A stretch of DNA of 48,407 bases from contig NZ_VLJP01000001.1 in assembly GCF_007829525.1 (NCBI RefSeq), forward strand, positions 211,873-260,279, written 5' to 3'. Below, in pieces: positions 3,056 to 16,384 of this stretch; position 1 is the stretch's first letter, and each line of letters starts with the position of its first letter. The notes below the pieces were generated by a model. That model did not search any database and was not told where the DNA came from. It worked only from the letters and a program-made list of their open reading frames with translations. Source of the stretch: Mesorhizobium sp. J18 (GTDB lineage Bacteria; Pseudomonadota; Alphaproteobacteria; Rhizobiales; Rhizobiaceae). The translations under genes were made by a program, and so were the position numbers.

Positions 3056-4426
3056 TTATCCGAATACGCCCTTCACCGCCTTCACCGTCGCGGCAACCAC
3101 CTTGTCGGCTTCCTCGCGGGTCAAGCAGAGGGGCGGGGCGAAGCCGAGGATGTCCCCTTGCGGCATGGCACGGCCGATCACGCCTTCCTTGAGAAGGGCG
3201 GCGGCCATCTGCGGCCCGATCTTCGCTGCCGGATCGAAGAAGCGGCGCTCGGCCTTGTCTTCCACGAATTCCACCGCGCAAAGCATGCCTTCGCCGCGCA
3301 CTTCGGCGACATTGGCGTGGTCGGAAAGCGCCTCTTTCATCGTCTTGACGAAATAGGCGCCGGTCTCTCCGGCATTCTTGACCAAACCAAGGCTGTCAAC
3401 CAGCTTCAGATTGGCGATGCCGGCGGCGGCGCCGATCGGATGAGCGGAATAGGTCCAGCCATGGCCGATCGGGCCGTTCTCGTCGGTGCCGCGCTCCAGC
3501 ACGTCCCAGACCTTCTTCGAGACGATGGAGCCGGAAAGCGGTGCATAGGCCGAGGTCAGTCCCTTGGCGATGGTGATGATGTCAGGCTCGATGCCGTAGT
3601 GGTCGGAGCCGAACATCGTCCCGAGACGGCCGAAGCCGGTCACCACTTCGTCGGCGATCAGCAGGATGTCGTGCTTTTTCAGCACCTTCTGGATCGCGTC
3701 CCAGTAACCGGCCGGCGGCGGCACGATACCGCCCGTGCCGAGCACCGGCTCGCCGATGAAGGCGGCGATGGTGTCGGCGCCCTCGCGTTCGATCAGCGCC
3801 TCCAGTTCCGCCACGCAATGGGCGGTGAAGTCCGCCTCGCTCATGCCGAGATCAGGCCGGCGATAATAGTAGGGCGCTTCGGTATGGATGACCTTGTCGA
3901 ACGGCAGGTCGAATTTGTTGTGGAAGGTCTCCAGCCCGGTCAGCGAGCCGGTCATGAGGCCGGAGCCGTGATAGCCGCGCCAGCGCGAGATGATCTTCTT
4001 CTTCTCCGGCCGACCGAGCATGTTGTTATAGTACCAGACGAGCTTGATGTTGGTCTCGTTGGCGTCCGACCCGCCGAGGCCAAAATAGACCTTCGACATG
4101 TTCTTCGGTGCCCGCTCGATGATCATCTTGGCGAGTGTGATCGAGGCTTCCGTGCCGTGACCGACATAGGCGTGGTAATAGGCAAGTTCCTTGGCCTGCT
4201 CTGCAATTGCCTCGGCGATTTCCGTGCGGCCATAGCCGACATTCACGCAATAAAGGCCGGCAAAGGCATCAAGCAGACGATTGCCGTCGCGATCCTCGAT
4301 ATAGACGCCCGAGCCGCCGGTGACGATACGGTTCGGCGTCTCGCCGCGCGCATGCTGGGCGAGATGTGTCGAGGGATGGAAGAAATTCTCGCGGTCCCAC
4401 TGATCCAGCATATCGTTCTTGAGCAT
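3056..4426 (-). CDS. Class III PLP aminotransferase (DoeD/Atf-like, diaminobutyrate transaminase)
   Basis: A 456-residue fold-type I aminotransferase of class III. Visible features are GGSDANETNIK (118-128), the PLP-pyridine Asp in LLIADEVVTGFGR (Asp259) and the Schiff-base lysine in ITIAKGLTSAYAPL (Lys288). In ectoine catabolism the equivalent enzyme (DoeD, Atf) removes the gamma-amino group of L-2,4-diaminobutyrate to give aspartate semialdehyde. Class III enzymes of this branch also act on beta-alanine, putrescine or taurine, so the substrate rests on context: it is last in a block with the aldehyde dehydrogenase and an EutD-like hydrolase. The start was set to the ATG 4 nt after AGGAGAAG; a longer in-frame extension upstream has no ribosome site. 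Confidence 0.85.
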   Translation of the reverse strand: MLKNDMLDQWDRENFFHPSTHLAQHARGETPNRIVTGGSGVYIEDRDGNRLLDAFAGLYCVNVGYGRTEIAEAIAEQAKELAYYHAYVGHGTEASITLAKMIIERAPKNMSKVYFGLGGSDANETNIKLVWYYNNMLGRPEKKKIISRWRGYHGSGLMTGSLTGLETFHNKFDLPFDKVIHTEAPYYYRRPDLGMSEADFTAHCVAELEALIEREGADTIAAFIGEPVLGTGGIVPPPAGYWDAIQKVLKKHDILLIADEVVTGFGRLGTMFGSDHYGIEPDIITIAKGLTSAYAPLSGSIVSKKVWDVLERGTDENGPIGHGWTYSAHPIGAAAGIANLKLVDSLGLVKNAGETGAYFVKTMKEALSDHANVAEVRGEGMLCAVEFVEDKAERRFFDPAAKIGPQMAAALLKEGVIGRAMPQGDILGFAPPLCLTREEADKVVAATVKAVKGVFG

Positions 4427-4437
4427 TGTTCTTCTCC

Positions 4438-5652
4438 TTATTTGATGGTGGGACCGACAGGGGTCCGGGAAAGTACTTCCGCGCCGCTGGCTGTCAGCAG
4501 CACGGGATTGGATACGAAATAGTCGCCTTTGCCGGTGCCCATCAGCCAGGAAAGGATATGGAAGCTCATGCCCTCGCGGATCTCCATATCCGAATCGTGG
4601 CGCAGGCCGGTGACGCGGTTGCCGCCCGTCCAGGAGGGGGGAAAGCCGATGCCGACGCAATAGCCGCAGTGATGCCGGCGATAATGCGAGAGGCCGGCAT
4701 CGTCCACCTCCTGCTGCCAGGCGGCGTAAACGTCGCGGGCGCTGGCGCCGGGCTTCAAGGCGCCGAGTACGGCCTTGAAAGCGGCGATAGCCGTTTCGGC
4801 CATCTGTTCGTCCCCCTCGCGGATGCTCGCCACATGAACGAGACGGCCGAGCGGAGCGTGATAACGGCTGACGCAGCCCGAAAGCTCCAGGAAGACCGGT
4901 TCATGCGCCTGATAAGTGCCATTGCCCCAGGTCGCGTGCTCTTCGCCGAGCCTCGCGCCGGGACGGATGAAGGGGCCGAAGCCAGGGGCGTCACCGCCGG
5001 CGCGGATCATGGCGGCGTGGCATTCCGCGACCACATCCCGCTCGGCCGCGCCGTCGTGGATCGCCGCGATCGCCGCTTCGGCTGCCGCATCAGAAACCGC
5101 GGCCGCCCTGCGCATCAGCTCCTGTTCGGCAGGTGATTTCACGAGCCGCAGATCGTCCACAAGTCCGGTGACATCCACCCACTGCACATCGCCAAGGCTT
5201 TCGCGCAGCGCATGGCCGAAGCCGTAGGAATGACCGGAGGACCAGGTTTCGACGCCGATCGTCGGCGCATGACCGGTGCGTTCGCCGACTTCCTCAACCA
5301 CGGTCTTGAGAACCTGACGGGAACGCTCCTTGGCCGCGAAGGAATCCCGCAGCACGCGCACGGCGAGATCGGCCGCCGTCTCGCTGTCGGTGTGCCCCTG
5401 GAAAAGTGCGTTGCGCACCTGTTTTTCGATCGAGACGCGTTCCATCTGGCGTGTGACCAGCACCATCTCGCCTTCCGCCGGAACGATCAGCAGATGCGGT
5501 GCGAAATAGCCCCAGTGGTCGAGACCGGTCAGATAGAAGATGTTTTCCGGCGTCGAAAGCAGAACCAACTCGATGCCGCGCGCCTGCATGATCCTGCGCA
5601 AGGCAGTGAGCCGGCCGTGCAGTTCCTCATCGGAGAATGGGTTGTCGAACAT
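4438..5652 (-). CDS. M24-family hydrolase, second EutD-like paralogue
   Basis: A 404-residue pita-bread protein of the M24 family: creatinase-like N-domain (about 1-150, with STPENIFYLTGLDHWGYF at 34-51) and a C-terminal M24 domain. It shares with the EutD of this window the segments LELSGCVSRYHAPLGR and CGYCVGIGFPPSW. The Asp pair that binds metal in aminopeptidases P and methionine aminopeptidases is missing from the first of these, as it is in EutD. It is therefore probably an amidohydrolase acting on ectoine, hydroxyectoine or a related small ring or amide, not a peptidase. It lies 18 bp from doeC and 11 bp before the aminotransferase, clearly in one operon. Start: ATG preceded by AAGGTG. 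Confidence 0.75.
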   Translation of the reverse strand: MFDNPFSDEELHGRLTALRRIMQARGIELVLLSTPENIFYLTGLDHWGYFAPHLLIVPAEGEMVLVTRQMERVSIEKQVRNALFQGHTDSETAADLAVRVLRDSFAAKERSRQVLKTVVEEVGERTGHAPTIGVETWSSGHSYGFGHALRESLGDVQWVDVTGLVDDLRLVKSPAEQELMRRAAAVSDAAAEAAIAAIHDGAAERDVVAECHAAMIRAGGDAPGFGPFIRPGARLGEEHATWGNGTYQAHEPVFLELSGCVSRYHAPLGRLVHVASIREGDEQMAETAIAAFKAVLGALKPGASARDVYAAWQQEVDDAGLSHYRRHHCGYCVGIGFPPSWTGGNRVTGLRHDSDMEIREGMSFHILSWLMGTGKGDYFVSNPVLLTASGAEVLSRTPVGPTIK

Positions 5653-5670
5653 CAATGCACCTTCGCGGGA

Positions 5671-7155
5671 TCAGCGGATGTCCCGGCAGACATACTTCAC
5701 GTTGGTGTAGTCCTCCATACCCATGCAGGAGCCTTCGCGGCCCAGACCGGCCTGCTTGATGCCGCCGAAGGGAATGGGAGCGCCGGTGATCTTGGTGCGG
5801 TTGACCGCCACCATGCCGAATTCCAGACGGCGCGAGAAGCGTGCGATGCGTCCGGGATCACGCGTATGCAGATAAGCGACGAGCCCGGTTTCCGTGTCGT
5901 TGGCGCGGGCCAAAACCTCTTCTTCGCTGTCGAATGGCGCAAAACCGGCTACAGGCCCAAAGGTCTCTTCTCGGAAGAGGAGGGCGGTTTCGGCGACATC
6001 GGCCAACACTGTCGGCCGATAGAAAAGCGGGCCTGCCGAGTGAAACCCGCCGCCCGTGACAAGTCTGGCACCTTTTTCGAGAGCATCCATCACATGGCCC
6101 TGCTGCTTGGCGACGGCGCTTTCGTTCATCAGAGGGCCGATATCCGGATCGGTCGAGCCCGGCCCAACGCGCATGACTTCTACCCTGGCCGCGAATGCTT
6201 CGACGAAGCGTTCGTAGATACGTCTTTCGATATAGAAGCGATTGGCGGCCAGGCAGTCCTGGCCGGAGGTCGCGAATTTCGCCGCTACGGCCATATCGAC
6301 GGCATGGCCGAAATCACAATCGGCAAAGGCGATAAAGGGCGCATGCCCACCGAGTTCCATAACCAGTTTTTTCACGGTGGGTGCACTCTGCTGGTAAAGT
6401 AGGCGCCCGATCTCCGTCGAGCCGGTGAAGGAGACAACCCGCACTTTCCGCGATGCCGTCATGGCCCCCACGACCTCGGGGGCATGGCCGGTCAGCACGT
6501 TGAAGACGCCAGCGGGAAAGCCCGCACGTTCTGCGAGTTCGGCCAGCGCAAGTGCCGAGAACGGCGTCTCGGAGGAGGGGTGGGCGACAACCGTGCAGCC
6601 GGCGGCGAGTGCCGCGGCTGCCTTGCGGGTGAGCATGGCGGACGGGAAGTTCCACGGCGTGATGAGGGCAGCGACGCCGGCGGGCTCACGAGAGATGAGC
6701 ATCTCGGCATCCGGCAGATGCGAGGTCACGCTCTCGACGTTCAGCCGTTTAGCCTCTTCTGCATAGAATTCGACGAAGGAGGCGGCATAGTCGATTTCGC
6801 CACGCGCCTCCGAGATCGGCTTGCCCTGTTCCTGAACCATCAACTGCGCCAGATCCTCGCGCGCGTCCATTATGAGGCTGTGCCAGGCCTTCAGGATATC
6901 CGATCGCTCTTGCGGAAGGCGTGCCGCCCAGGCAGGAAAGGCCGCATGGGCGGCGTCGATTGCCTCTTCGACCTGCGCGGCCTGAAGCGCCGGTACGCAG
7001 CCGACCCGGCTGCCGTCGGCGGGATTGGTCACATCGACGCTGTCACCGTTGCTTGCGGCGATCCAATGGCCGGCGGAATAGGAATATTCGCGGAAGAGCC
7101 GCGGGTCCTTGAGATGAGAAAGCGAGGCTTTCTGCAGCATTGCGACGGCGGACAT
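5671..7155 (-). CDS. doeC: Aldehyde dehydrogenase, succinate/aspartate-semialdehyde type (DoeC/Ssd)
   Basis: A 494-residue NAD(P)-dependent aldehyde dehydrogenase. The catalytic glutamate is in VMELGGHAPF (Glu267), the nucleophile in SGQDCLAANRF (Cys301), and the oxyanion Asn in ITPWNFPSAM (around 165-174). In ectoine breakdown DoeC oxidises L-aspartate 4-semialdehyde to aspartate; in the Ruegeria cluster the equivalent gene is ssd. One oddity: the cofactor-site lysine usually seen in VxKPSE is replaced by His in VVAHPSSETP. It heads a three-gene operon (doeC, second M24, aminotransferase). The start is the ATG 5 nt after GGAGG; an ATG four codons earlier is less well placed. The gene name rests on cluster context. 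Confidence 0.83.
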   Translation of the reverse strand: MSAVAMLQKASLSHLKDPRLFREYSYSAGHWIAASNGDSVDVTNPADGSRVGCVPALQAAQVEEAIDAAHAAFPAWAARLPQERSDILKAWHSLIMDAREDLAQLMVQEQGKPISEARGEIDYAASFVEFYAEEAKRLNVESVTSHLPDAEMLISREPAGVAALITPWNFPSAMLTRKAAAALAAGCTVVAHPSSETPFSALALAELAERAGFPAGVFNVLTGHAPEVVGAMTASRKVRVVSFTGSTEIGRLLYQQSAPTVKKLVMELGGHAPFIAFADCDFGHAVDMAVAAKFATSGQDCLAANRFYIERRIYERFVEAFAARVEVMRVGPGSTDPDIGPLMNESAVAKQQGHVMDALEKGARLVTGGGFHSAGPLFYRPTVLADVAETALLFREETFGPVAGFAPFDSEEEVLARANDTETGLVAYLHTRDPGRIARFSRRLEFGMVAVNRTKITGAPIPFGGIKQAGLGREGSCMGMEDYTNVKYVCRDIR

Positions 7156-7257
7156 GAGGACCTCCATTGCACAATCCGAACATGGCGGCGGTTACGAGTG
7201 CGAACACGGAGACGTGTTGCTCGATTCGTCTGTGATGTTTGATCATGCGCTCTCGAA

Positions 7258-7325: not shown

Positions 7326-7823
7326 TCAGTCCTTCGGGTCGCCTTCACCGGAAAGCAGGAGGCTCAAAGGCAGGTGCTTCGACTGTTTGACGGGCTTGGT
7401 CACCACATAGGTGAAATAGCGGGCCAGGCCGACCTTGGAGTCCAGCAGATGATCGATCAGCCGCTGGTATGAATCGATGTCCCTCGTGATGATCTGGAGA
7501 ATGTAGTCGAAACCCCCGCCAACGGCCCAGCAGCCGACAATCTCCTCGTATTTTTCGATCGCGCGCTCGAAAGTCTGAAAGTTTTCCGTACGGTGGCCTT
7601 CCAGCTCCGCCGCCATGAAGACCACGATATGCGGCGCGATCTTCCTCAGCGCCACCTCGGCATGATAGCCGGTTATGATACCAGCCTTCTCCAGCCGCTT
7701 GAGCCGTTCCCAGCAGGGGGCCGCCGTGAGGTTCACGCGCTCGGCAAGCGCTGCCTTGGAGATGCGGCCCTCCTGCCGCAGAATGGCGAGTATCTTCAGG
7801 TCACGGTCGTCGAGCCGGATCAT
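7326..7823 (-). CDS. Lrp/AsnC-family regulator of ectoine catabolism (DoeX/AsnC-like)
   Basis: A 165-residue feast/famine regulator. The N-terminal winged helix-turn-helix (about 1-60) reads LDDRDLKILAILRQEGRISK...LTAAPCWERLKRLEKAGIITGY. The C-terminal RAM (ligand-sensing) domain follows from about residue 68, with the loop GCWAVGGGFDYILQI. Ectoine clusters commonly carry such a gene (doeX in Halomonas, asnC in Ruegeria), and DoeX-type proteins bind the promoter of their catabolic operon. Here it follows eutC by 7 bp and so is made with the uptake operon, while the doeC block lies 170 bp downstream. Effector is not visible; N-acetyl-diaminobutyrate or diaminobutyrate would fit what is known of the pathway. 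Confidence 0.85.
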   Translation of the reverse strand: MIRLDDRDLKILAILRQEGRISKAALAERVNLTAAPCWERLKRLEKAGIITGYHAEVALRKIAPHIVVFMAAELEGHRTENFQTFERAIEKYEEIVGCWAVGGGFDYILQIITRDIDSYQRLIDHLLDSKVGLARYFTYVVTKPVKQSKHLPLSLLLSGEGDPKD

Positions 7824-7829
7824 TTCGCG

Positions 7830-8822
7830 CTAGGTCGAAATTATCGACCCGGCGCCGGCGGCCCGAGCCCTCTTCAACGCGAAGGTGGCGATGGCTGTGT
7901 CTTGCGCGCCGGTGCCGGTCAGGTCGCAGATGGTGATCTGCCGCTCATTCTCCCGGCCCGGTTTGGTCTTGGCGATGATTTCACCAAGCTCGGGCGGAGT
8001 TCCACCTTTCCATAGTCCTGCTTCGATTGCCGCGCGCAATTCGCCCAGCTTCTCGCATTGGCTGACCCGGTCGGCGACATAGAGCCCTGCCTTGACGATC
8101 GCCTGCGGGTCGATCTCGTTCTTGCCGGACTGATCGGAGCCCATGGCCGTGATATGGAGGCCGGAATGCAGCCATTCGGCCTTGACAATAGGCTCTTCCG
8201 CTGGCGTCGTCGTGACAACCAACTGGCTTTCGGCGACCAGCCTGGCCGGATCGGCTTCCGCCCGTGCCTCGATGCCGAGCAGGTCGGCCAGTTCCCCGGC
8301 GCAGCGCTCGGCCTTGGCGCCATCGCGGCCCCAGACCAGTGCGCGCTCGAAGGGGCGGACCAGATGAGCGGCCTGCATCTGCAGCCGCGCCTGCACGCCG
8401 GTGCCTATAACCCCGGCGGTCTTGACGTTTACCGGCGCCAGATGACGAGCGGCGACGGCACCCGCCGCCGCCGTGCGGATATCGGTGAGATAGCCGTTGT
8501 CGAGCAACAGGGCTTCGACCAGCCCCGTTTTGGCGGAAAACAGGATCATGAGACCATTGAGGCTAGGCAGACCGAGCTTCGGGTTGTCGAAGAAACCGGG
8601 ACTAACCTTGATGGCAAAACCATCGAAACCGGGGATGAAGGCGGTCTTCACATCCACCTCGCCATTGGCCTCGGGAATGGCCATGGACAGGATCGGCGGC
8701 ATGATCACCTTGCCGGAGGCGAGCGCAGTGAAGGCATTCTCGACCACGCCGACCGCTTCGAGATTGAGGTGAACGGCACGGCGCAGGTCGGCCTCGGTGA
8801 GGATGGTTATGTCATGCGCCAT
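7830..8822 (-). CDS. eutC: Ornithine cyclodeaminase family protein EutC
   Basis: A 330-residue member of the ornithine cyclodeaminase/mu-crystallin family. The substrate-side segment KVSPGFFDNPKLGLPSLNG and the Rossmann motif GVIGTGVQARLQMQ are clear, followed by LVVTTTPAEEPIV and GSDQSGKNEID. In ectoine clusters the gene after eutB is eutC, which with EutA and EutB takes hydroxyectoine-derived intermediates back into the ectoine route. The start is the ATG at 8822, which overlaps eutB by 11 nt; a longer in-frame form would run deep into eutB. No eutA is found beside it, so its exact role here is less certain than its family. Confidence 0.85.
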   Translation of the reverse strand: MAHDITILTEADLRRAVHLNLEAVGVVENAFTALASGKVIMPPILSMAIPEANGEVDVKTAFIPGFDGFAIKVSPGFFDNPKLGLPSLNGLMILFSAKTGLVEALLLDNGYLTDIRTAAAGAVAARHLAPVNVKTAGVIGTGVQARLQMQAAHLVRPFERALVWGRDGAKAERCAGELADLLGIEARAEADPARLVAESQLVVTTTPAEEPIVKAEWLHSGLHITAMGSDQSGKNEIDPQAIVKAGLYVADRVSQCEKLGELRAAIEAGLWKGGTPPELGEIIAKTKPGRENERQITICDLTGTGAQDTAIATFALKRARAAGAGSIIST

Positions 8823-9819
8823 AAGGCATTCCCTTGATCGTGATGTCTCCCAGCCGGACATCTCGGCCGCTGATAATGTCAGTAAAGACGCCCATATCTA
8901 GATTGCGGCCGGTGACAATGCTGGCAATCGGCCCCGGCACCTTGCCGAGTTTGCCGGCCAACAACGCTGCCGCGCCGACCGCGCTTGCGCCCTCGCAGAC
9001 GATCCTGTCCTCGAAATAGTGGACCTGCATGGCGCGGTAAATCTCCTCCTCGGTTACGAGCACGATATCGTCGAGATAGTCACGGCAAAGCGCGAAGGAA
9101 TGCTGGTTGTGGAGACCGATCCCGCCGCCGAGCGAATCCGCAAGACTTTCGACCTCCCGGACCTCCACCGGCCTGCCGGCCCGGATGGATTCGTACATGG
9201 CCGCGCCGCGATCCATGGTGATGCCGACGACGCGGATATCCGGCTTGATGCGCTTGGTGGCGAATGCAATGCCGCCGGCCAGCCCGCCGCCGGAAAGCGG
9301 GATAAGGACGGTGCCGAGATCAGGCCGCTGTTCGAGAAGTTCCAGCCCGATCGTACCCTGGCCGGCAATCACAAGGGGATCGTCAAAGGGTGAAATCTCG
9401 GCAAAGCCTTCTTCCTTCGCAAGCCGGCGGCTTTCGGCCTGGGCTTCATCCTGGCTTTCCCCGACGATACGGACTTCTGCGCCGAGCGCACGAATACCGT
9501 CGACCTTGGCCTGTGGCACGAGCCGCGACATGCATACGACGGCCTGCAGACCGCGCGCTCTCGCTGCATAGGCGATGCCGCGGCCATGATTTCCGGTCGA
9601 GCAGCAGGTGACCCCTTTCACGTCCCGTCCAAGAGCGAAAACGGCGTTTGCAGCCCCGCGCAGCTTGAAGGCTCCGATCGGCTGTACAATCTCAAGCTTG
9701 AGCAGGAATTCCGTCTCTGCTGTCTTTTCGAGGAAAGGGGAGGGAACCAGCGGCGTTTTGGCCGCAACACCGGAAATCCTTCGGCGGGCGGCCAGAATGT
9801 CGGCGAGCGATAGGCTCAA
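8812..9819 (-). CDS. eutB: PLP-dependent threonine dehydratase-like protein EutB
   Basis: A 335-residue fold-type II PLP enzyme. The Schiff-base lysine is in QPIGAFKLRGAANAV (Lys52), the substrate loop is STGNHGRG and the phosphate-binding loop is SGGGLAGG. EutB is the threonine dehydratase-like member of the hydroxyectoine side path. It lies directly after ehuA and before eutC, as in known ehu/eut clusters. The only start that keeps the N-terminal SLADILAARRRI helix is a TTG whose bases overlap the ehuA stop (TTGA), a sign of tight translational coupling. Biosynthetic IlvA is unlikely: there is no C-terminal regulatory domain. Confidence 0.87.
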   Translation of the reverse strand: MSLSLADILAARRRISGVAAKTPLVPSPFLEKTAETEFLLKLEIVQPIGAFKLRGAANAVFALGRDVKGVTCCSTGNHGRGIAYAARARGLQAVVCMSRLVPQAKVDGIRALGAEVRIVGESQDEAQAESRRLAKEEGFAEISPFDDPLVIAGQGTIGLELLEQRPDLGTVLIPLSGGGLAGGIAFATKRIKPDIRVVGITMDRGAAMYESIRAGRPVEVREVESLADSLGGGIGLHNQHSFALCRDYLDDIVLVTEEEIYRAMQVHYFEDRIVCEGASAVGAAALLAGKLGKVPGPIASIVTGRNLDMGVFTDIISGRDVRLGDITIKGMPYGA

Positions 9820-10637
9820 GTCGCCTCCTTCACCGCACTCAGGAATTGTTGTGTGCGCTCCTTCTGCGGATTGCCAAACAGCTCATCAGGCGTGCCCTGT
9901 TCCTCGATGCGGCCGCCGTAAAAGAAGCAGACGCGGTCGGAGATGTCCTTGGCGAAGCCCATCTGATGGGTGACCATGAGCATGGTCAGATTGTGCTCGG
10001 TCACGAGCCGTCTGATGACATTGGTCACTTCGCCGATCACCTCGGGGTCGAGCGCCGACGTGACCTCGTCGAACAGCATCACCTTGGGCCGCATGGCCAG
10101 CGCGCGGGCGATGGCAACCCGCTGCTGCTGGCCGCCGGACAGGCGGGAGGGATGCTGGTTGCGCTTGTCGGCCATGCCGACCATCTCGAGCAGCTCCTCC
10201 GAACGTTCGCGCGCCTCCTTCTTCGAAAGGCCCAGCACGTGAACCGGACCTTCCATGCAGTTTTCCAGCGCCGTCATGTGCGGGAAAAGATTGAAGTGCT
10301 GGAAGCACATGCCGATATTGGAGCGCATCTGTCGCAGATGACGGTTGCTGGCAGGCACCAGACGATCACCCTGAGGCATGTGGGTGAGCGGTTTACCATC
10401 GACATAGATTACGCCGTCATTGATTGTTTCCAGTGTCATCAGCATCCTGAGCACGGTGGTTTTGCCCGAGCCCGAGGGGCCGATGATGGTGACCATTTCG
10501 CCCTCGGCAACGTCGAGATCGAGCGAATCTAGCACGACCAGATCGCCGTAGCGCTTGGTGACCTTCCTGAAGCTCACCATCGGCATGTTGTCGCCTTCGA
10601 GAGCGAGGGGGAAATCCGAGAGGGATTCGTTCGTCAT
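9816..10637 (-). CDS. ehuA: Ectoine/hydroxyectoine ABC transporter ATP-binding protein
   Basis: A 273-residue cytoplasmic ATPase of the polar amino acid (HisP/GlnQ) type. Walker A is GPSGSGKT (53-60), the ABC signature LSGGQQQR (166-173), Walker B VMLFDE (186-191) and the switch His in MVTHQMG (near 224). It powers EhuC and EhuD. The ATG overlaps the ehuD stop (ATGA); a much longer in-frame extension lies inside ehuD and was rejected. It is the only ATPase of this class in the window, although a second polar amino acid importer at 39,591-42,029 has no ATPase gene of its own. Confidence 0.92.
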   Translation of the reverse strand: MTNESLSDFPLALEGDNMPMVSFRKVTKRYGDLVVLDSLDLDVAEGEMVTIIGPSGSGKTTVLRMLMTLETINDGVIYVDGKPLTHMPQGDRLVPASNRHLRQMRSNIGMCFQHFNLFPHMTALENCMEGPVHVLGLSKKEARERSEELLEMVGMADKRNQHPSRLSGGQQQRVAIARALAMRPKVMLFDEVTSALDPEVIGEVTNVIRRLVTEHNLTMLMVTHQMGFAKDISDRVCFFYGGRIEEQGTPDELFGNPQKERTQQFLSAVKEAT

Positions 10638-11305
10638 CAGCTCATTCCCAGTTTCCTGCGCACCCAGGCCTCGAAGATGCGAATGCCGGCGGCCGTGGGC
10701 AGCGAGATGGCCAGAAAGATGATTCCGACCAGCGTGTAGGGCTCGAGATAGCGATAAGTCTCGGAGCCGATGGCTGTGGCGGTGTGCATCAATTCGGCCA
10801 CGCCGATAACCGACAGCATGGGTGTGTCCTTGAAGATGCCGACCAGATAATTGCCCATGCCGGCCAGTGAGGGCGGCAGGGCCTGCGGAATGATGACCCG
10901 GAAGTAGGTCCGTGCCGTCGAGAGGTTCAGCGAGGTCGCCGCTTCCCACTGACCTTTGGGCACGCTTTCCAGACCGCCGCGATAGACCTCCGACAGATAA
11001 GAGGCGTAGTGCAGGCCGATGGCGATCATGCCAGCCGTCCATGGCGACAGCCTGAGGCCGAATTGCGGCCCGACATAGAATACGAAGAAAATCTGGAGAA
11101 CCAGCGGCGTCGAGCGTATGAATTCGACCGTCTCGCGAACTGCCAGAGTCAACGCGCGGTAGGGCGTGCGCTGGGCGAGCGCGAAGACAAGTCCCAGCAC
11201 GACGGCGAGGGCATAACCGAACCCCGCCGCCATGAGCGTGTTGCCCGTGGCCGCGACGAGACGAGGCAGGATCTCCCAGGTGAAGTCCCAGCGCCAGTCG
11301 AACAT
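10637..11305 (-). CDS. ehuD: Ectoine/hydroxyectoine ABC transporter permease EhuD
   Basis: A 222-residue inner-membrane permease of the HisM/HisQ family with about five predicted transmembrane helices. The EAA loop that docks on the ATPase reads WEAATSLNLSTARTYFRVIIPQALP. It forms the channel with EhuC. It starts 3 bp after the ehuC stop and its own stop overlaps ehuA. The name EhuD, not EhuC, follows the published Sinorhizobium gene order and is a positional call; the two permeases are close relatives. Confidence 0.88.
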   Translation of the reverse strand: MFDWRWDFTWEILPRLVAATGNTLMAAGFGYALAVVLGLVFALAQRTPYRALTLAVRETVEFIRSTPLVLQIFFVFYVGPQFGLRLSPWTAGMIAIGLHYASYLSEVYRGGLESVPKGQWEAATSLNLSTARTYFRVIIPQALPPSLAGMGNYLVGIFKDTPMLSVIGVAELMHTATAIGSETYRYLEPYTLVGIIFLAISLPTAAGIRIFEAWVRRKLGMS

Positions 11306-11308
11306 GGC

Positions 11309-11974
11309 TCAGGCCCTTCCCAGCTTGCGGGTCATGAAACGCTCCAGCCAACGCATGAAGGGCGTAATCATGAAACGGGCAAGGATGTAATACACAATCA
11401 GCGCGGTCCCGAAGGTCTGGGCCGACAAGAAGGTGCTGCCGTTGATCTGCTTGGCCTGGAACATGAGGTCGGCGACGGCGATCAGCGCGACCAGGGCAGT
11501 CCCCTTCAGCAGCTCGATCATGAGATTGCCCCAAGGCGGCAGCATGATGAGAAGCGCTTGCGGCAGGATCACGCGCAGCATGCGCTTGGCCGGAGACATG
11601 TTGAGCGCCAGTGCCGCCTCCCATTGGCCTCTTGGGACGGACAGGATCGCGCCGCGCACCAGTTCGGCCCCGTAAGCGCCAAGATTCATTCCGACGGCGA
11701 CGAAGCCGGCGGTGAACTTCTCAAGCGTGATGCCAAAGAGCGGCAGCACAAAGAAGATCCAGTAGAGCTGGACGAGCAGAGACGTCCCGCGGAAGATTTC
11801 GATATAAACGGTTGCGATGCCGCGTATCAGAGCATTAGGCGCCAGTCGCATCAGACCCATGGCCAGCGCGATCGCGATCGCCAGCAGTGCCGAAAGCACC
11901 GTCAGCAGCATGGTGATCAGCGTGCCGCTGGCGAGCCGGTCGCCATACTGGCTGAGGAATTCGAAATAGGACAT
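11309..11974 (-). CDS. ehuC: Ectoine/hydroxyectoine ABC transporter permease EhuC
   Basis: A 221-residue permease of the HisM/HisQ family, with the ATPase-docking EAA loop WEAALALNMSPAKRMLRVILPQAL and the segment EIFRGTSLLVQLYWIFFVLP near the first periplasmic turn. It pairs with EhuD. The ATG used has GAGGGGA about 7 nt upstream; an in-frame TTG 15 nt earlier would place that ribosome site inside the gene. About 100 bp with two stem-loops separate it from ehuB, so it is likely expressed less than the binding protein. Confidence 0.88.
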   Translation of the reverse strand: MSYFEFLSQYGDRLASGTLITMLLTVLSALLAIAIALAMGLMRLAPNALIRGIATVYIEIFRGTSLLVQLYWIFFVLPLFGITLEKFTAGFVAVGMNLGAYGAELVRGAILSVPRGQWEAALALNMSPAKRMLRVILPQALLIMLPPWGNLMIELLKGTALVALIAVADLMFQAKQINGSTFLSAQTFGTALIVYYILARFMITPFMRWLERFMTRKLGRA

Positions 11975-12011
11975 GCCGCTTCCCCTCAAGGCGACGAAAG
12001 GCGGAAGTCAC

Positions 12012-12075: not shown

Positions 12076-12930
12076 CTAGCGGTTGGCGCAGACCCATTCG
12101 GTGGTCTTGTCACCAGGCAACGAGCCTTCGTCGTAGCCATATTCGGCGACTGCGGCGAGCATCTCTTCGGAGCCGACATAATCTTTCAATGCGGCATTGA
12201 ACTTGTCGAGGAAGTCTTGGTCATTCTTGCGGAAACCGATGCCGGCCCAATTGAACGATTCCTCGGGCATGGCGCCAGGATCGGTCACTTCGACAGCTCC
12301 GTCCGAGCTGTCGGCAAGCTGCTTCATGGTGAAATAGGTGCCCGCTCCGGCATCGGCCCGGCCTGCCCTGACTGCGGCGAGAATCTCGGTCGGACCAGGG
12401 ACCTGCATGATGCTGTCCTCGGCCAGCCCGGCGGCCTTCGCTGCCTCGATGTTCGAATAGCCTGCGCCGGTCACCATGATCGCCTCATTGTCGACAAGGC
12501 TCTTGTAGTCGCCGATCCCCTTGGGATTTCCGGGCGCCACGATGAAAGCGTCACCGACCGTGGCAATCGGTTCGGAAAAGGCGATATTCTCGCAGCGGCT
12601 CGCCAGGATGTTCATGCCGCCCGTGATGATGTCGAAGCGGTTCGCATTCAAGCCGGGAATAAGGCCGCCCCACTCCGTCTGCACCGGCTCGATGTTTTCG
12701 TAACCCATGCTCTTCAGGATGCCTATGGTGATGACGTTGACAAAGCCCTTGGGGCTGCCGTCATCGCCAGGATATGCGAACGGTATCTCGTTGGCGAAAC
12801 CGATACGGATCGGCTCACCGCCTTCAACCTTCTCCAGCAGCGATTGTGCGCTGGCCGAGCCCATCATCGAGCCCGCAGCAAGCGCCGCGATGCCGAGCGC
12901 GGCCATGCCCTTTAGGAAGACTCTTCTCAT
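12076..12930 (-). CDS. ehuB: Ectoine/hydroxyectoine-binding periplasmic protein
   Basis: A 284-residue family 3 solute-binding protein. It begins with a Sec signal peptide (MRRVFLKGMAALGIAALAAG, cleavage likely after ASA near residue 28), followed by the mature start of the class (EPIRIGFANEIPFAYP), the hinge-side segment WGGLIPGLNANRFDIITGGM and the closing domain around ESFNWAGIGFRKND. EhuB captures ectoine and hydroxyectoine with high affinity for EhuCDA. It is the first gene of the minus-strand arm, 209 bp from the divergent eutD. The start is the ATG before MRRVFLK; a 46-codon longer reading lacks a signal peptide at its front and crosses the promoter palindrome, so it was rejected. Confidence 0.9.
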   Translation of the reverse strand: MRRVFLKGMAALGIAALAAGSMMGSASAQSLLEKVEGGEPIRIGFANEIPFAYPGDDGSPKGFVNVITIGILKSMGYENIEPVQTEWGGLIPGLNANRFDIITGGMNILASRCENIAFSEPIATVGDAFIVAPGNPKGIGDYKSLVDNEAIMVTGAGYSNIEAAKAAGLAEDSIMQVPGPTEILAAVRAGRADAGAGTYFTMKQLADSSDGAVEVTDPGAMPEESFNWAGIGFRKNDQDFLDKFNAALKDYVGSEEMLAAVAEYGYDEGSLPGDKTTEWVCANR

Positions 12931-12976
12931 CGTAATTCCCCTGTTTCTGTTGAATGATTTTCGATGCTGGATAGAA

Positions 12977-12995
12977 GTGATGTACACAACATCAC
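12977..12995. promoter_or_regulatory. Palindrome in the ehuB-eutD divergent promoter region
   Basis: GTGATGT-ACACA-ACATCAC is a perfect 7+5+7 inverted repeat 47 bp upstream of the ehuB start. Its core TGTACA-like sequence resembles operators of GntR/FCD regulators, one of which is encoded 2.5 kb away in the same cluster. It is the strongest operator candidate for the uptake operon. Confidence 0.5.
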
Positions 12996-13072
12996 GCACC
13001 CGGAAGCTGTCAACGAATTTTTCCGCAAGGGAAAGCAACGTTCCCATTCCAGTCCGCGAAATTTTCAAATAG

Positions 13073-13082
13073 ATGTATACAT
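13073..13082. promoter_or_regulatory. TGTATACA palindrome upstream of eutD
   Basis: ATGTATACAT is a perfect 10-bp palindrome 58 bp before the eutD start. TGTATACA-type cores are typical of GntR/FCD operators. With the 12977-12995 site it could give the cluster regulator control over both arms. Confidence 0.4.
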
Positions 13083-13105
13083 GCCGGAAGACCCGGCGGC
13101 TCTAC

Positions 13106-13124
13106 AGGCGCCCGCGAGGCGCCT
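13106..13124 (+). terminator. Terminator-like hairpin in the eutD leader
   Basis: AGGCGCC (13106-13112) and GGCGCCT (13118-13124) form a perfect GC-rich 7-bp stem with a 5-nt loop, followed at once by TTCTTC. The ribosome site GGAGGG of eutD begins 6 nt later. Because it lies between the candidate operator and the gene it could act as an attenuator or as an mRNA 5' stabiliser. The pyrimidine tract is short, so termination would be weak. Confidence 0.45.
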
Positions 13125-13139
13125 TTCTTCGGAGGGTAT

Positions 13140-14324
13140 ATGCCAGGCTCACAGCTGCCTTTCAGCGCGCAGGAATATGCTGCACGCCTCACCAGGGTTC
13201 GTCAGTCGATGGAAGACAAGGGGATCGACGTTCTCTTCGTCGAGGACCCTTCCAATATGGCCTGGCTGACGGGCTATGATGGCTGGTCGTTCTACGTCCA
13301 TCAGGGCGTCATCGTCTTTCCCGATGAGGATCCGATCTGGTGGGGCCGTTCGCAGGATGCCAACGGCGCCATCCGTACATGCTGGATGGATGACGATCGC
13401 GCCGTTTCCTATGCCGATCATTTCGTGCAATCGCCCGATTGCCACCCGATGGAGGACCTTGCCGCGTTCCTTGCCAGCAAGGGCTATGGGAACAAGCGTA
13501 TCGGTCTCGAACTCGACAATTATTACTTCTCGGCCAAGGCGTTTCTCACGCTCCAGAAGGAATTGCCCAATGCGACCCTGGTGGATGCTACCGCGTTGGT
13601 CAATTGGCAGCGGGGCGTGAAGTCCGATGAGGAGATCGCATTCATGCGGCGCGCGGCGCGCATCTCCGACAAGATCATCGACGGCATTCTTCAGCGCGTT
13701 GAGCCGGGCGTCAGGAAGAACGAGCTGGTCGCCGAGATCTACGCCGACGCGGTGCGCGGAGTCGACGACAATTGGGGTGACTATCCGGCTATCGTCCCGC
13801 TTCTGCCGAGCGGATCGGACGCGGCGGCGCCGCATCTGACGTGGAACTGGACGACCTTCGAGAAGGGCGAAGCAACCTTCTTTGAAATCTCCGGCTGCTA
13901 TCGGCGTTATCACGCACCGCTCTGCCGGACGGTCTTCCTCGGCAAGCCGCCGCAATATTTGCTCGATGCCGAACAAGCCTTGATCGCCGGCCTCGAAGCC
14001 GGCCTCGAGGCCGCCCGACCGGGAAATCGCGCCGGCGACGTGTCACGGGCGCTGCATGCGGAGCTGAAGAAGTGGGGCATCGAGCGCTCGGCGCGTTGCG
14101 GCTATCCGATCGGACTTTCCTATCCACCCGACTGGGGTGAGCGCACGATCTCCTTCCGCGACAATGACGACACCATCCTGCAGGCGGGCATGACATTCCA
14201 CTTCATGCCGGGTTTGTGGATGAAGGACTGGGGCATGGAAATCACCGAAAGCATCCTGATCCGCGAGGACGGGCCTGCCGAATGCCTGTGCAGCCAGCCG
14301 CGCAAGATGTTCGTGAAGGATTGA
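13140..14324 (+). CDS. eutD: Ectoine hydrolase
   Basis: A 394-residue cytoplasmic M24-fold hydrolase (EutD, called DoeA in Halomonas) that opens the ectoine ring to N-acetyl-2,4-diaminobutyrate. Recognisable segments are PSNMAWLTGYDGWSFYVHQG (residues 38-57), WWGRSQDANGAIRTCW, EISGCYRRYHAPLCR and GYPIGLSYPPDW. These are characteristic of this branch; the metal-binding Asp pair of true aminopeptidases is absent. It leads the plus-strand arm, with GGAGGG 3 nt before the ATG, and its stop abuts the deacetylase start. Its leader carries the palindrome and hairpin listed separately. A second, more distant relative lies at 4,438-5,652; this one is the better match to characterised EutD/DoeA. Confidence 0.92.
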   Translation: MPGSQLPFSAQEYAARLTRVRQSMEDKGIDVLFVEDPSNMAWLTGYDGWSFYVHQGVIVFPDEDPIWWGRSQDANGAIRTCWMDDDRAVSYADHFVQSPDCHPMEDLAAFLASKGYGNKRIGLELDNYYFSAKAFLTLQKELPNATLVDATALVNWQRGVKSDEEIAFMRRAARISDKIIDGILQRVEPGVRKNELVAEIYADAVRGVDDNWGDYPAIVPLLPSGSDAAAPHLTWNWTTFEKGEATFFEISGCYRRYHAPLCRTVFLGKPPQYLLDAEQALIAGLEAGLEAARPGNRAGDVSRALHAELKKWGIERSARCGYPIGLSYPPDWGERTISFRDNDDTILQAGMTFHFMPGLWMKDWGMEITESILIREDGPAECLCSQPRKMFVKD

Positions 14325-15503
14325 TTGAAAGTGCCGGGTACATCCGAACTTCTTGGGCGGACTCGGGAAATCCTTGCCGATCTCGTCGCCTTTCCGACCG
14401 TTTCGACCCAAAGCAATCTCGAGCTGATCGCTTATGCGGGCGACATATTGAGCGGAGCAGGAGCCCAGCTTTCGATGTCGCTCGATCCATCCGACAGCAA
14501 GGCCAACCTCTTCGCCACGCTCGGCGGGGAGGGCGATGGCGGCATAGTGCTTTCCGGGCATAGCGACGTCGTGCCAGTCGAGGGGCAGGATTGGTCGAGC
14601 GATCCCTTCGTGCTCGACGAGCGGGACGGCCGGCTCTATGGCCGTGGCACCTGCGACATGAAGGGCTTCATTGCCTGCACCCTGGCGATGGCACCGTATT
14701 TTGCCGAGGCGAAGCTCAGCCGGCCGGTGCATTTTGCCTTTACCTATGACGAGGAGATCGGCTGCTTCGGCGCGCGTGCCCTTATGGGCGAGATCGCCAA
14801 TGCAGGCGTTCGCCCCTCCGTTGCCATCATCGGCGAGCCGACCTCGATGCGCATCATCGAGGCGCACAAGGGCTGTTACGAATACACTGCGGAATTCCGT
14901 GGGCTCGAAGGGCACGGCTCGGTGCCCGATCGCGGTGTCAATGCAGTGGAGTATGCGGTGCGCTACGTCTCGCGGCTGATGGCCCTGGCAGAAGATCTGA
15001 AGGCCCGGGCTCCGGCCAATAGCCGTTTCCAGCCGCCCTGGTCGACGCTGCAGATAGGCCGCATAGCTGGCGGCGTTGCCCATAATGTAATTGCCGGCCA
15101 ATGCACCGTGGACTGGGAGATGCGACCGGTGCAGGCGAGCGATGCGGACTATGTGAAATCCGATATCTTCGCCTATGTCGAGAACGAGTTGAAGCCGGCG
15201 ATGAAGGCTGTCCATGCCGATGCCGACATCGTCACTCATGTGATCGGCGAGGTGGTCGGGCTGGAGCCAGTCACGGAATCGGAAGCACGCCGCATCGTGT
15301 CGGAACTCACTGGATCTGATGACGCGGAAGCCGTTGCCTTCGGCACGGAGGCGGGACTCTTCCAGCAGGCCGGTATTTCCTCTGTAGTCTGCGGTCCGGG
15401 CTCGATCGATCAGGCCCACAAGGCTGATGAATTCGTGTCGATCGACCAATTGCGTTCCTGTCTCGAAATGCTTGAGCGACTGCGGGCAAAGCTGGCCTGC
15501 TGA
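14325..15503 (+). CDS. ArgE-type M20 deacetylase, probable N-acetyl-diaminobutyrate deacetylase
   Basis: A 392-residue M20 zinc hydrolase of the acetylornithine deacetylase (ArgE) group. Metal and catalytic motifs are GHSDVVPVEGQDW, GRGTCDMKGF, the catalytic pair in TYDEEIGCFGA and IGEPTS, the dimer-lid EGHGSVPDRGVNAV, and the last metal His in GPGSIDQAHKADEF. In known clusters the N-acetyl-diaminobutyrate deacetylase is EutE/DoeB of the succinylglutamate desuccinylase family, which is absent here. Acetylornithine and N-acetyl-diaminobutyrate differ by one methylene, so replacement is chemically reasonable. The TTG directly after the eutD stop or the GTG at 14331 could be the start; AAGGA lies at 14316-14320. 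A true arginine-biosynthesis ArgE is the alternative, but the location argues against it. Confidence 0.82.
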   Translation: MKVPGTSELLGRTREILADLVAFPTVSTQSNLELIAYAGDILSGAGAQLSMSLDPSDSKANLFATLGGEGDGGIVLSGHSDVVPVEGQDWSSDPFVLDERDGRLYGRGTCDMKGFIACTLAMAPYFAEAKLSRPVHFAFTYDEEIGCFGARALMGEIANAGVRPSVAIIGEPTSMRIIEAHKGCYEYTAEFRGLEGHGSVPDRGVNAVEYAVRYVSRLMALAEDLKARAPANSRFQPPWSTLQIGRIAGGVAHNVIAGQCTVDWEMRPVQASDADYVKSDIFAYVENELKPAMKAVHADADIVTHVIGEVVGLEPVTESEARRIVSELTGSDDAEAVAFGTEAGLFQQAGISSVVCGPGSIDQAHKADEFVSIDQLRSCLEMLERLRAKLAC

Positions 15504-15507
15504 TATC

Positions 15508-16245
15508 ATGGCGAGCGAAGCAGGCGGAAAAAGCACACGCGGACCGGCCGGAAGGCAGGAGGATTCGCGCCAGCGCTTCGACCGCATCTATGGCGCGCTG
15601 CGCATGCGTATCTGTCTGCTTGACTATCCGCCCGGCATGCGGCTGCGCGAGGAGGATCTGGCGGAGGAGTTCGAAACCAGCCGCACGCCCATCCGCCGTG
15701 TGCTTGCGCGGCTGGAGGATGAAGGCTTGCTGCGCTCCGTCCATGGCGTCGGCACCATCGTCACCGATATCGATATCGACGAGTTGAAGCAGGTCTACCA
15801 GCTTCGCGTGGAGCTTGCCGAACTTATCGGCAAGCTCTGTCCGCTACCGCCGGACGCGGAGAAGCTCGCTGCGTTCCGGTCGATACTGGCGCGCTGCGAC
15901 AAGCTCGTCGCTCAGCCGGACGCAAAAGAATTCGCCCGCATCAATATGGAATTCTTCCATCTCCTTTCGTCTCTCTCCGGCAACGAACCGCTGCGCGACA
16001 TCAGCGAACGGCTCTACTACCAGACGACGCGCATCTGGCTGAAGACGGCCTCGCGTCTCAGCCAATACAAGGAGATGCTGCATGAGGAGATTGTGATCTT
16101 CCACCGCGAAGTGGCGGATATCGTTGCTGCGGTCGAACTTGGCGACCTCGAATCCGTCGGCCATATTCGCCGCTCGCACATTGCCATGAGCTTTGCGCGC
16201 CTGCTTGCGCAGGCGCATTCCGGGGATCCATCGCGAGGCTCTTGA
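15508..16245 (+). CDS. GntR-family regulator, FCD subfamily
   Basis: A 245-residue regulator. The N-terminal winged helix (about 25-95) has the GntR signature LDYPPGMRLREEDLAEEF...TSRTPIRRVLARLEDEGLL. The C-terminal all-helical FCD domain (about 100-235) contains the metal/ligand-site pattern in FARINMEFFHLL and a late His in IRRSHIAMSF. It is third in the eutD arm, 4 nt after the deacetylase gene, so it likely controls the cluster and itself. Most ectoine clusters use EnuR, a MocR-type GntR protein with an aminotransferase-like domain; this one has none. The ATG at 15508 was preferred over an in-frame ATG 27 codons upstream inside the deacetylase gene. Confidence 0.87.
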   Translation: MASEAGGKSTRGPAGRQEDSRQRFDRIYGALRMRICLLDYPPGMRLREEDLAEEFETSRTPIRRVLARLEDEGLLRSVHGVGTIVTDIDIDELKQVYQLRVELAELIGKLCPLPPDAEKLAAFRSILARCDKLVAQPDAKEFARINMEFFHLLSSLSGNEPLRDISERLYYQTTRIWLKTASRLSQYKEMLHEEIVIFHREVADIVAAVELGDLESVGHIRRSHIAMSFARLLAQAHSGDPSRGS

Positions 16246-16317
16246 AGCGGCAACACAAGTCAGGCTCGGGAGCGCCATTTCCACATTGGATGGCACAAAT
16301 GAAGTTTTCTCCGGCGC

Positions 16318-16348
16318 TTGACCTTCCAGTGACTGGAAGCCCTATCTG
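16318..16348 (+). promoter_or_regulatory. CueR-type MerR-family copper promoter
   Basis: The -35 box TTGACC (16318-16323) and -10 box TATCTG (16343-16348) are separated by 19 bp, the over-long spacer typical of MerR-family promoters. The spacer is filled by the perfect dyad CTTCCAG-TGA-CTGGAAG (16323-16339), close to the CueR operator of E. coli copA. Transcription would start about 30 nt before the ATPase start codon. No merR/cueR gene is nearby, so the regulator must be encoded elsewhere. Confidence 0.85.
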
Positions 16349-16384
16349 CGGCAAAACGAGCAATCTGCAGACCGGAGTCGATCG

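Follow-up and report, generated by a model that had tools for sequence, protein, structure and literature searches.

Ectoine degradation and the EutD-EutE system

Ectoine serves widely as an osmolyte and nutrient, and its consumers have been identified in genome surveys by the joint presence of eutD and eutE. The EutD-EutE bimodule of Ruegeria pomeroyi was reportedly described by Mais et al. in 2020. According to passages of PMC8739950, EutD of R. pomeroyi makes alpha-acetyl-diaminobutyrate, which EutE deacetylates; parts of PMC3187862 report that a doeB deletion in H. elongata abolishes growth on ectoine and leads to accumulation of the alpha isomer. The present analysis concerns a stretch of 48,407 nucleotides from Mesorhizobium sp. 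J18 (contig NZ_VLJP01000001.1, positions 211,873 to 260,279, assembly GCF_007829525.1), hereafter the window, which carries an ectoine-type gene cluster. As in the bimodule outlined in PMC8739950, EutD is accompanied here by an adjacent putative deacetylase; the second enzyme, however, belongs to another family, M20, and is of the acetylornithine deacetylase (ArgE) type. This protein is very probably a dedicated N-alpha-acetyl-L-2,4-diaminobutyrate deacetylase doing the job of EutE/DoeB, an enzyme activity predicted from sequence and genomic context.

The lack of eutE as such is not new, judging from portions of PMC13188858. Bacillota carry eutD-eutC-atf clusters that contain abgB, a putative amidohydrolase gene, in the absence of eutE, and eutE-less clusters occur in Thermodesulfobacteriota as well. 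The Bacillota clusters are like that of the window in being ectoine-type and devoid of eutE, and differ from it in phylum and gene order. According to passages of the two papers, genomes entered the 363-genome set of PMC8739950 only if eutD and eutE were directly side by side, and PMC13188858 focused on genomes in which EutE and EutB were found as well. Such designs would largely leave out clusters of the M20 type. Among open-licence papers, we found no description of an M20 enzyme in ectoine breakdown and none naming both 'ectoine hydrolase' and 'acetylornithine deacetylase'. PMC5320631 contains 'ectoine degradation' and 'acetylornithine deacetylase', and in the relevant passages ArgE is named only for gamma-aminobutyrate (GABA) regulons. 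A doeA-argE pair is already present in public annotation, unremarked as far as we found, on a plasmid of Mesorhizobium sp. 131-2-5 (locus L141; L-numbers denote gene loci compared and G-numbers surveyed genomes). This pair shows the same EutD-M20 adjacency, and its M20 protein is 61% identical to that of the window.

An ArgE-type protein in the eutE position

The two genes at the centre of the analysis follow one another on the plus strand:

13140..14324, plus strand: eutD/doeA, ectoine hydrolase (M24), 394 amino acids; TIGR02993 624 bits, cut-off 613
14325..15503, plus strand: ArgE-type M20 deacetylase gene in the eutE position, Glu186-bearing, 392 amino acids; TIGR01892 398.5 bits, cut-off 297.7

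The TGA stop of eutD occupies 14322-14324, and the TTG start of the M20 gene lies on the next base, 14325, with GTG 14331 as an alternative start. Against the solved EutD of R. pomeroyi (6twk), the window EutD scores 526 bits. The gene cluster is truly ectoine-type, with EutB, EutC, EhuA, EhuB, EhuC, and EhuD each above curated cut-offs; together with EutD, they uphold the initial annotation of the locus as an ectoine cluster with eutD. Within this ectoine cluster, the M20 gene immediately follows eutD, a position like that of eutE. It resembles EutE/DoeB (TIGR02994, succinylglutamate desuccinylase/aspartoacylase type) in this position, in the neighbouring pathway genes, and in the predicted reaction, whereas the two proteins belong to unrelated families.

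The initial annotation had described the product of the eutD-coupled gene as an M20 zinc hydrolase with full ArgE motifs, a description that holds. The protein comprises the Pfam domains Peptidase_M20 and M20_dimer and scores above both acetylornithine deacetylase models (TIGR01892, as listed, and NF005710, 497.6 against 412 bits), while it remains under the cut-off of the DapE model TIGR01246 (117.9 against 361.8 bits). The five zinc ligands of E. coli ArgE, named in part of PMC11270798 (H80, D112, E145, E169, and H355), align with H79, D111, E144, E171, and H365. By sequence, the best solved relative is E. coli ArgE (7rsf, 188 bits). The predicted model, with a mean predicted local distance difference test (pLDDT) score of 83.7, finds its best match among the chains compared in E. 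coli ArgE 8uw6 (Z 38.0, root-mean-square deviation 3.6 over 369 residues), followed by DapE 5vo3 (Z 36.7). A common fold with ArgE is no proof of function. The protein is like E. coli ArgE in fold, zinc ligands, alpha-carboxylate residues, and family score; it differs in lying in an ectoine cluster and in two pocket residues that are not kept, Cys184 replacing His182 and Glu186 replacing Ser184. We class it as ArgE by sequence family and do not claim a strict functional ArgE.

In principle, the gene could encode an ordinary acetylornithine deacetylase for arginine synthesis that lies beside eutD by chance. The TIGR01892 score and the E. coli enzyme as best solved relative would suit this explanation, which is nevertheless scarcely credible in view of the remaining evidence. 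In the genome of strain J18 (4.26 Mb, 94 contigs, 99.04% complete), ArgJ was found above cut-off. ArgJ recycles acetyl groups, so that arginine synthesis can run without ArgE and should not need the M20 gene here. The next-best M20 paralogue in this genome is only 30% identical to the window protein. Across the whole genome, M20 gene included, TIGR02994 gave no match at E<=1, and PF04952 (the AstE/AspA family) gave none. The absence of EutE/DoeB from the window, as stated in the initial annotation, therefore extends to the entire assembly, and a eutE/doeB gene elsewhere, half of what that annotation held to speak against its proposal, was not encountered.

Distribution of the two deacetylase types

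A survey of 199 genomes from the family to which the window belongs, strain J18 included, detected EutD (E<=1e-140) in 124, EutE (E<=1e-100, all above cut-off) in 75, and the M20 clade of the window (E<=1e-128) in 38. At these thresholds, none of the 199 genomes contains both EutE and the M20 clade, and the latter is always accompanied by EutD (38/38). A one-sided Fisher test among the 124 EutD genomes gives 2.5e-22, a value that ignores relatedness. EutE lies directly downstream of eutD in 75/75 copies and M20 in 36/39; the median gap from one match end to the next is 24 bases for EutE and 14 for M20. This adjacency, and the fact that the M20 clade never occurs without EutD in these genomes, argue against a chance neighbour devoted to arginine synthesis. 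The M20 type accounts for about a third of EutD-bearing family genomes (38/124, or 43/124 with adjacent distant and truncated cases).

The three non-adjacent M20 copies belong to G470, G484, and G531, the last being an additional copy immediately beside a EutD fragment. In both G470 and G484, EutD is of the canonical type, EutE is absent at E<=1e-100, and the M20-clade gene lies on another contig. Eleven EutD genomes have neither partner at the thresholds used: four carry an adjacent ArgE-like M20 (46-48% identity), one M20 gene and one EutE gene are cut by a contig end, and five genomes have neither nearby. Two genera contain both types (G450 and G534; G539 and G457), and their EutDs differ too. 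Hence, the units of exchange seem to have been whole modules and not single genes. M20 clusters and EutE clusters have aminotransferase, SSADH, and DoeX genes in common.

A search with EutD as query gave 49 loci. An M20 homologue lies directly downstream in 34 of them (one beside a eutD cut by a contig end), including loci of Chelativorans, Aminobacter, Pseudaminobacter, Martelella, Loktanella, Maritimibacter, and Acuticoccus; two, both from Salinivibrio, have EutE. The other 13 have neither partner next door, one being cut by a contig end and two merely distant M24 relatives. At class level, 385 genomes were sampled and at most four M20 candidates scored per genome. EutD was present at E<=1e-100 in 52 genomes and EutE above cut-off in 17. 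Among 57 EutD regions, which are part of all EutD places, an M20 gene is adjacent in eight genomes besides that of the window (G107, G154, G213, G257, G303, G331, G354, and G381).

Several observations weigh against a dedicated EutE-like role of the M20 protein. The window EutD clears the TIGR02993 cut-off by only 11 bits, and 13/36 M20-adjacent EutDs of the family survey remain under the 613-bit limit. The cut-off thus splits M20-type EutDs, and automatic annotation by TIGR02993 will miss part of them. Two M20-partnered genomes of the class sample, G154 (240.5 bits) and G213 (217.5 bits), also carry a distant EutE-family gene elsewhere, far below the cut-off of 402.7. In 8 of the 49 loci, a EutD belonging to the same clade has no EutE or M20 nearby (partners elsewhere in those genomes were not searched for), and the M20 gene does not adjoin eutD in G222, G117, G380, G470, and G484. 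In several Rhodobacteraceae, the pair occurs without EutBC and EhuABCD nearby, and the substrate there may differ. Moreover, the correlation is one among related genomes; the M20-partnered EutDs are largely one clade, and independent events are few.

The Rhodobacteraceae also bear on the suggestion that in this clade a different amidine or an N-acylated amino acid, and not ectoine, is the main substrate of EutD and the M20 protein. In L021 and other members, as well as in L083, the pair lies beside other ATP-binding cassette (ABC) transporters with no Ehu or EutBC nearby, and EutD scores fall around the cut-off. Against this suggestion, EhuABCD and EutBC are present in the window and in most Rhizobiaceae-type relatives, whose aminotransferase corresponds to the one found in EutE clusters. 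We consider a different main substrate decidedly improbable for this clade, and ectoine is retained as the probable substrate of the pair.

Other EutD loci show further arrangements. In L021, L034, L075, and L083, EutD-type genes lie by other ABC transporters whose ATPase is about 40% identical to EhuA, with no EhuBCD or EutBC nearby, and the binding protein of L034 looks polyamine-type by eye; the substrate in these four loci may not be ectoine. The EutDs of L075, L076, and L077 (G082, G197, and G290) reach 672-675 bits and have neither EutE nor M20 beside them, and a third kind of EutD partner is possible in these cases. L099 and L100 come from very small genomes (G297 and G207, 1.2-1.3 Mb), in which a distant EutD and a Glu186-bearing M20 are about 11 kb apart.

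Substrate pocket and predicted reaction

Position 186 distinguishes EutD-linked M20 proteins from their ArgE-like relatives. The comparison comprised 58 EutD-linked rows (56 distinct, as L161 and L163 are repeats), 51 of them adjacent to eutD and seven non-adjacent in EutD genomes; L222 and L223, duplicates of loci already included, were left out. Glutamate occupies the position in 46/46 proteins of the main group, in 5/5 and 3/3 of two further EutD-adjacent groups, and in 4/4 outlying rows counted apart (L082, L099, L100, and L113). It was found in 0/77 background ArgE-like proteins, a set drawn from the best-scoring rows listed rather than at random (18 from a first set, one Klebsiella plasmid protein, and 58 further), none of which adjoins a class-survey EutD by position. 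E. coli ArgE has Ser184 at this place, and the residue is unlike it in all 58 rows compared, a further point against an ordinary ArgE.

Comparisons with DapE and ArgE place this residue in the pocket. Position 186 aligns with Thr183 of H. influenzae DapE, and Table 2 of PMC13058870, in the part concerned, assigns Thr183 and tryptophan counterparts to amino-acid binding. In excerpts of PMC11270798, DapE Ser181 and ArgE His182 are assigned to that side of the pocket which receives the far end of the longer DapE substrate, with which the bulkier residue of ArgE would clash. In the model of the window protein, this position is two residues before Glu186 on the same strand (184-192). His197, Asn254, and Arg267 are 100% conserved in the main M20 group and are expected to bind amide and alpha-carboxylate in the manner of ArgE and DapE.

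A reaction sequence may be proposed on this basis. EutD would open ectoine to N-alpha-acetyl-diaminobutyrate, as others have shown for EutD/DoeA relatives, and the di-zinc M20 enzyme would take off the acetyl group. The grip of His197, Asn254, and Arg267 on amide and alpha-carboxylate would favour the alpha over the gamma isomer, while Glu186, at the side-chain end of the pocket, is inferred to meet and bind the 4-ammonium group of the substrate. The DoeD-like aminotransferase and the DoeC-like dehydrogenase would then take diaminobutyrate on to aspartate, as the genes shared with EutE clusters suggest. The initial annotation had raised the question of which acetyl isomer is preferred; since the alpha-carboxylate residues are kept, the alpha isomer is predicted. 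Glu186 amounts to a single-residue prediction for substrate choice.

Alternatively, the pair may act on ectoine with an M20 enzyme that prefers N-gamma-acetyl-diaminobutyrate, or the hydroxylated alpha-acetyl-diaminobutyrate derived from 5-hydroxyectoine. The cluster includes EutB and EutC, which are linked to 5-hydroxyectoine, and H. elongata DoeA in E. coli gave both isomers, as stated in passages of PMC3187862 and PMC5924519. EutD residues W212 and F168 (39/41 each) separate the main-lineage M20-type from EutE-type EutDs, so that regiochemistry could differ. Against these alternatives stand the retention of the alpha-carboxylate and amide residues and the lack of EutBC near the pair at a number of loci. 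We regard either of these substrates as unlikely to be the preferred one; unhydroxylated N-alpha-acetyl-diaminobutyrate is taken as the predicted substrate in what follows.

ArgE-like M20 genes are also found on plasmids, in many records from Klebsiella and in some from E. coli, about 46% identical to that of the window among the matches listed. On the Klebsiella plasmid NZ_CP055068.1 (L142), genes for RidA, DUF1028, and a polyamine-type transporter surround such a gene, with no EutD in the stretch.

EutD lineages and origin of the module

Phylogenetic trees separate the EutDs of the two types. The second EutD tree held 110 rows and was built with a quick method; 15 partnerless rows from 13 far loci were left out, L050, L056, L057, and L058 are missing from the trees for want of a full EutD row, and three rows are repeats (L149=L020, L161=L013, and L163=L053). 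A EutD clade of 50 rows (SH-aLRT 100), three of them repeats, contains 39 of the 50 M20-partnered EutDs; its other 11 rows lack both partners, and no EutE-partnered EutD belongs to it. Because these 39 EutDs share a clade free of EutE partners, the main lineage appears to be an alternative EutD+M20 module, mostly not a swap within one cluster. A loop difference in EutD, considered from the 6twk alignment, was rejected as a distinguishing feature, the stretch being 17 residues long in 38/41 M20-type, 5/5 second-group, and 21/23 EutE-type proteins.

The main-type EutD-linked M20 proteins likewise form a clade separate from background ArgE-like proteins (support 99/95 in the first tree, 98 in the second). 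Two smaller M20 groups exist, one beside canonical-type EutDs (L071, L150, L154, L157, and L159) and one beside distant EutDs (L102-L104). The former are swap-like cases, in which M20 stands behind a canonical-type EutD. Both groups branch elsewhere when the tree is rooted on E. coli ArgE, which has a very long branch. With background proteins between them under this root, the three EutD-adjacent groups were considered as separate recruitments, an idea that was dropped: a single clade is not rejected (p-AU 0.705), and the tree holding the three groups together was 8.3 log units better (26 rows against 40). One origin of EutD-linked M20 is thus not rejected by the trees, and repeated recruitment is not claimed. 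If the three groups were independent recruitments, Glu186 would be convergent.

The initial annotation had viewed the gene as a non-orthologous replacement of EutE/DoeB. This proposal is supported by the failure to find EutE or AstE/AspA homologues in the genome, the presence of ArgJ, the 75 and 38 family genomes with no overlap at the thresholds used, and Glu186, with the correction that the main lineage is mostly an alternative module and not a replacement within one cluster. The M20 enzyme belongs to an ArgE-like clade that has for the most part been passed on jointly with its own EutD lineage. A broader scenario is possible, though rather doubtful as a whole. It envisages a second, unrelated family of N-alpha-acetyl-diaminobutyrate deacetylases that arose from an ArgE-like ancestor with one pocket change (Glu186), evolved in step with a EutD lineage of its own, assumed the part of EutE in helping EutD to release product, and in part of its range underwent a regulatory switch to a GntR/FCD protein on TGTRYACA operators. 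The existence of two unrelated partners in nature allows a direct comparison of whether product release needs a specific EutD partner or any enzyme that removes N-alpha-acetyl-diaminobutyrate.

Regulator, operator-like palindromes, and neighbouring genes

A regulator gene follows the M20 gene, and two operator-like palindromes precede eutD:

15508..16245, plus strand: GntR/FCD-family regulator behind the M20 gene (ATG 15508 start inferred); Pfam GntR 65 bits, FCD 52 bits
12981..12988, no strand: operator-like palindrome TGTACACA, ehuB-eutD intergenic; one of two TGTRYACA matches in the window
13074..13081, no strand: operator-like palindrome TGTATACA, 66 bases before eutD; the other TGTRYACA match

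The motif TGTRYACA thus matches twice in 48.4 kb, both times between ehuB and eutD, against 0.63 matches expected by chance. Either TGTATACA or TGTGCACA occurs within 300 bases before eutD in 17/18 distinct loci with M20 and this GntR, as opposed to 0/76 other EutD loci; the motif was chosen after viewing the window and its relatives, and the loci are related. The palindromes are probably the operator of the GntR/FCD regulator, used instead of EnuR. No sigma-70 promoter pattern was found at 12900-16500. The doeA-argE pair of L141 differs in this respect, with a MocR-type regulator (GntR and aminotransferase domains) upstream and no GntR/FCD relative seen in its stretch. Outside L141, no relative of the Mesorhizobium MocR protein above 38% identity was found in the compared loci.

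The remaining genes of the cluster lie on the minus strand:

12076..12930 (start approximate), minus strand: ehuB, ectoine-binding protein; TIGR02995 210.4 against 190.9 bits, translated stretch 12079-12933
11309..11989, minus strand: ehuC permease; TIGR03004 238 against 196.95
10637..11305, minus strand: ehuD permease; TIGR03003 269.4 against 205.2
9816..10535 (upstream limit approximate), minus strand: ehuA ATPase; TIGR03005 390.6 against 345.4
8812..9819, minus strand: eutB; TIGR02991 432 against 413.35
7830..8861, minus strand: eutC; TIGR02992 481 against 471.65
7326..7823, minus strand: AsnC/Lrp regulator, DoeX-like; Lrp-family match below cut-off, relatives in EutE-type clusters
5671..7167, minus strand: SSADH-type aldehyde dehydrogenase, DoeC-like (aspartate-semialdehyde step); subfamily matches below cut-off
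4438..5655, minus strand: second M24 protein, not EutD; 165 against 613 bits (TIGR02993), 202 against 575 (NF038259)
3056..4426 (start approximate), minus strand: class III aminotransferase, DoeD/Atf-like; NF005684 847 against 687

Genes 52-65% identical to the DoeC-like dehydrogenase and 60-83% identical to the DoeD/Atf-like aminotransferase occur in EutE-type clusters. EutA had no match among the 15 window gene products scanned, the remaining genome not having been searched for it. The second M24 protein (4438-5655) has relatives of 58-79% identity in L011, L018, and L089 and might be another ring-opening hydrolase.

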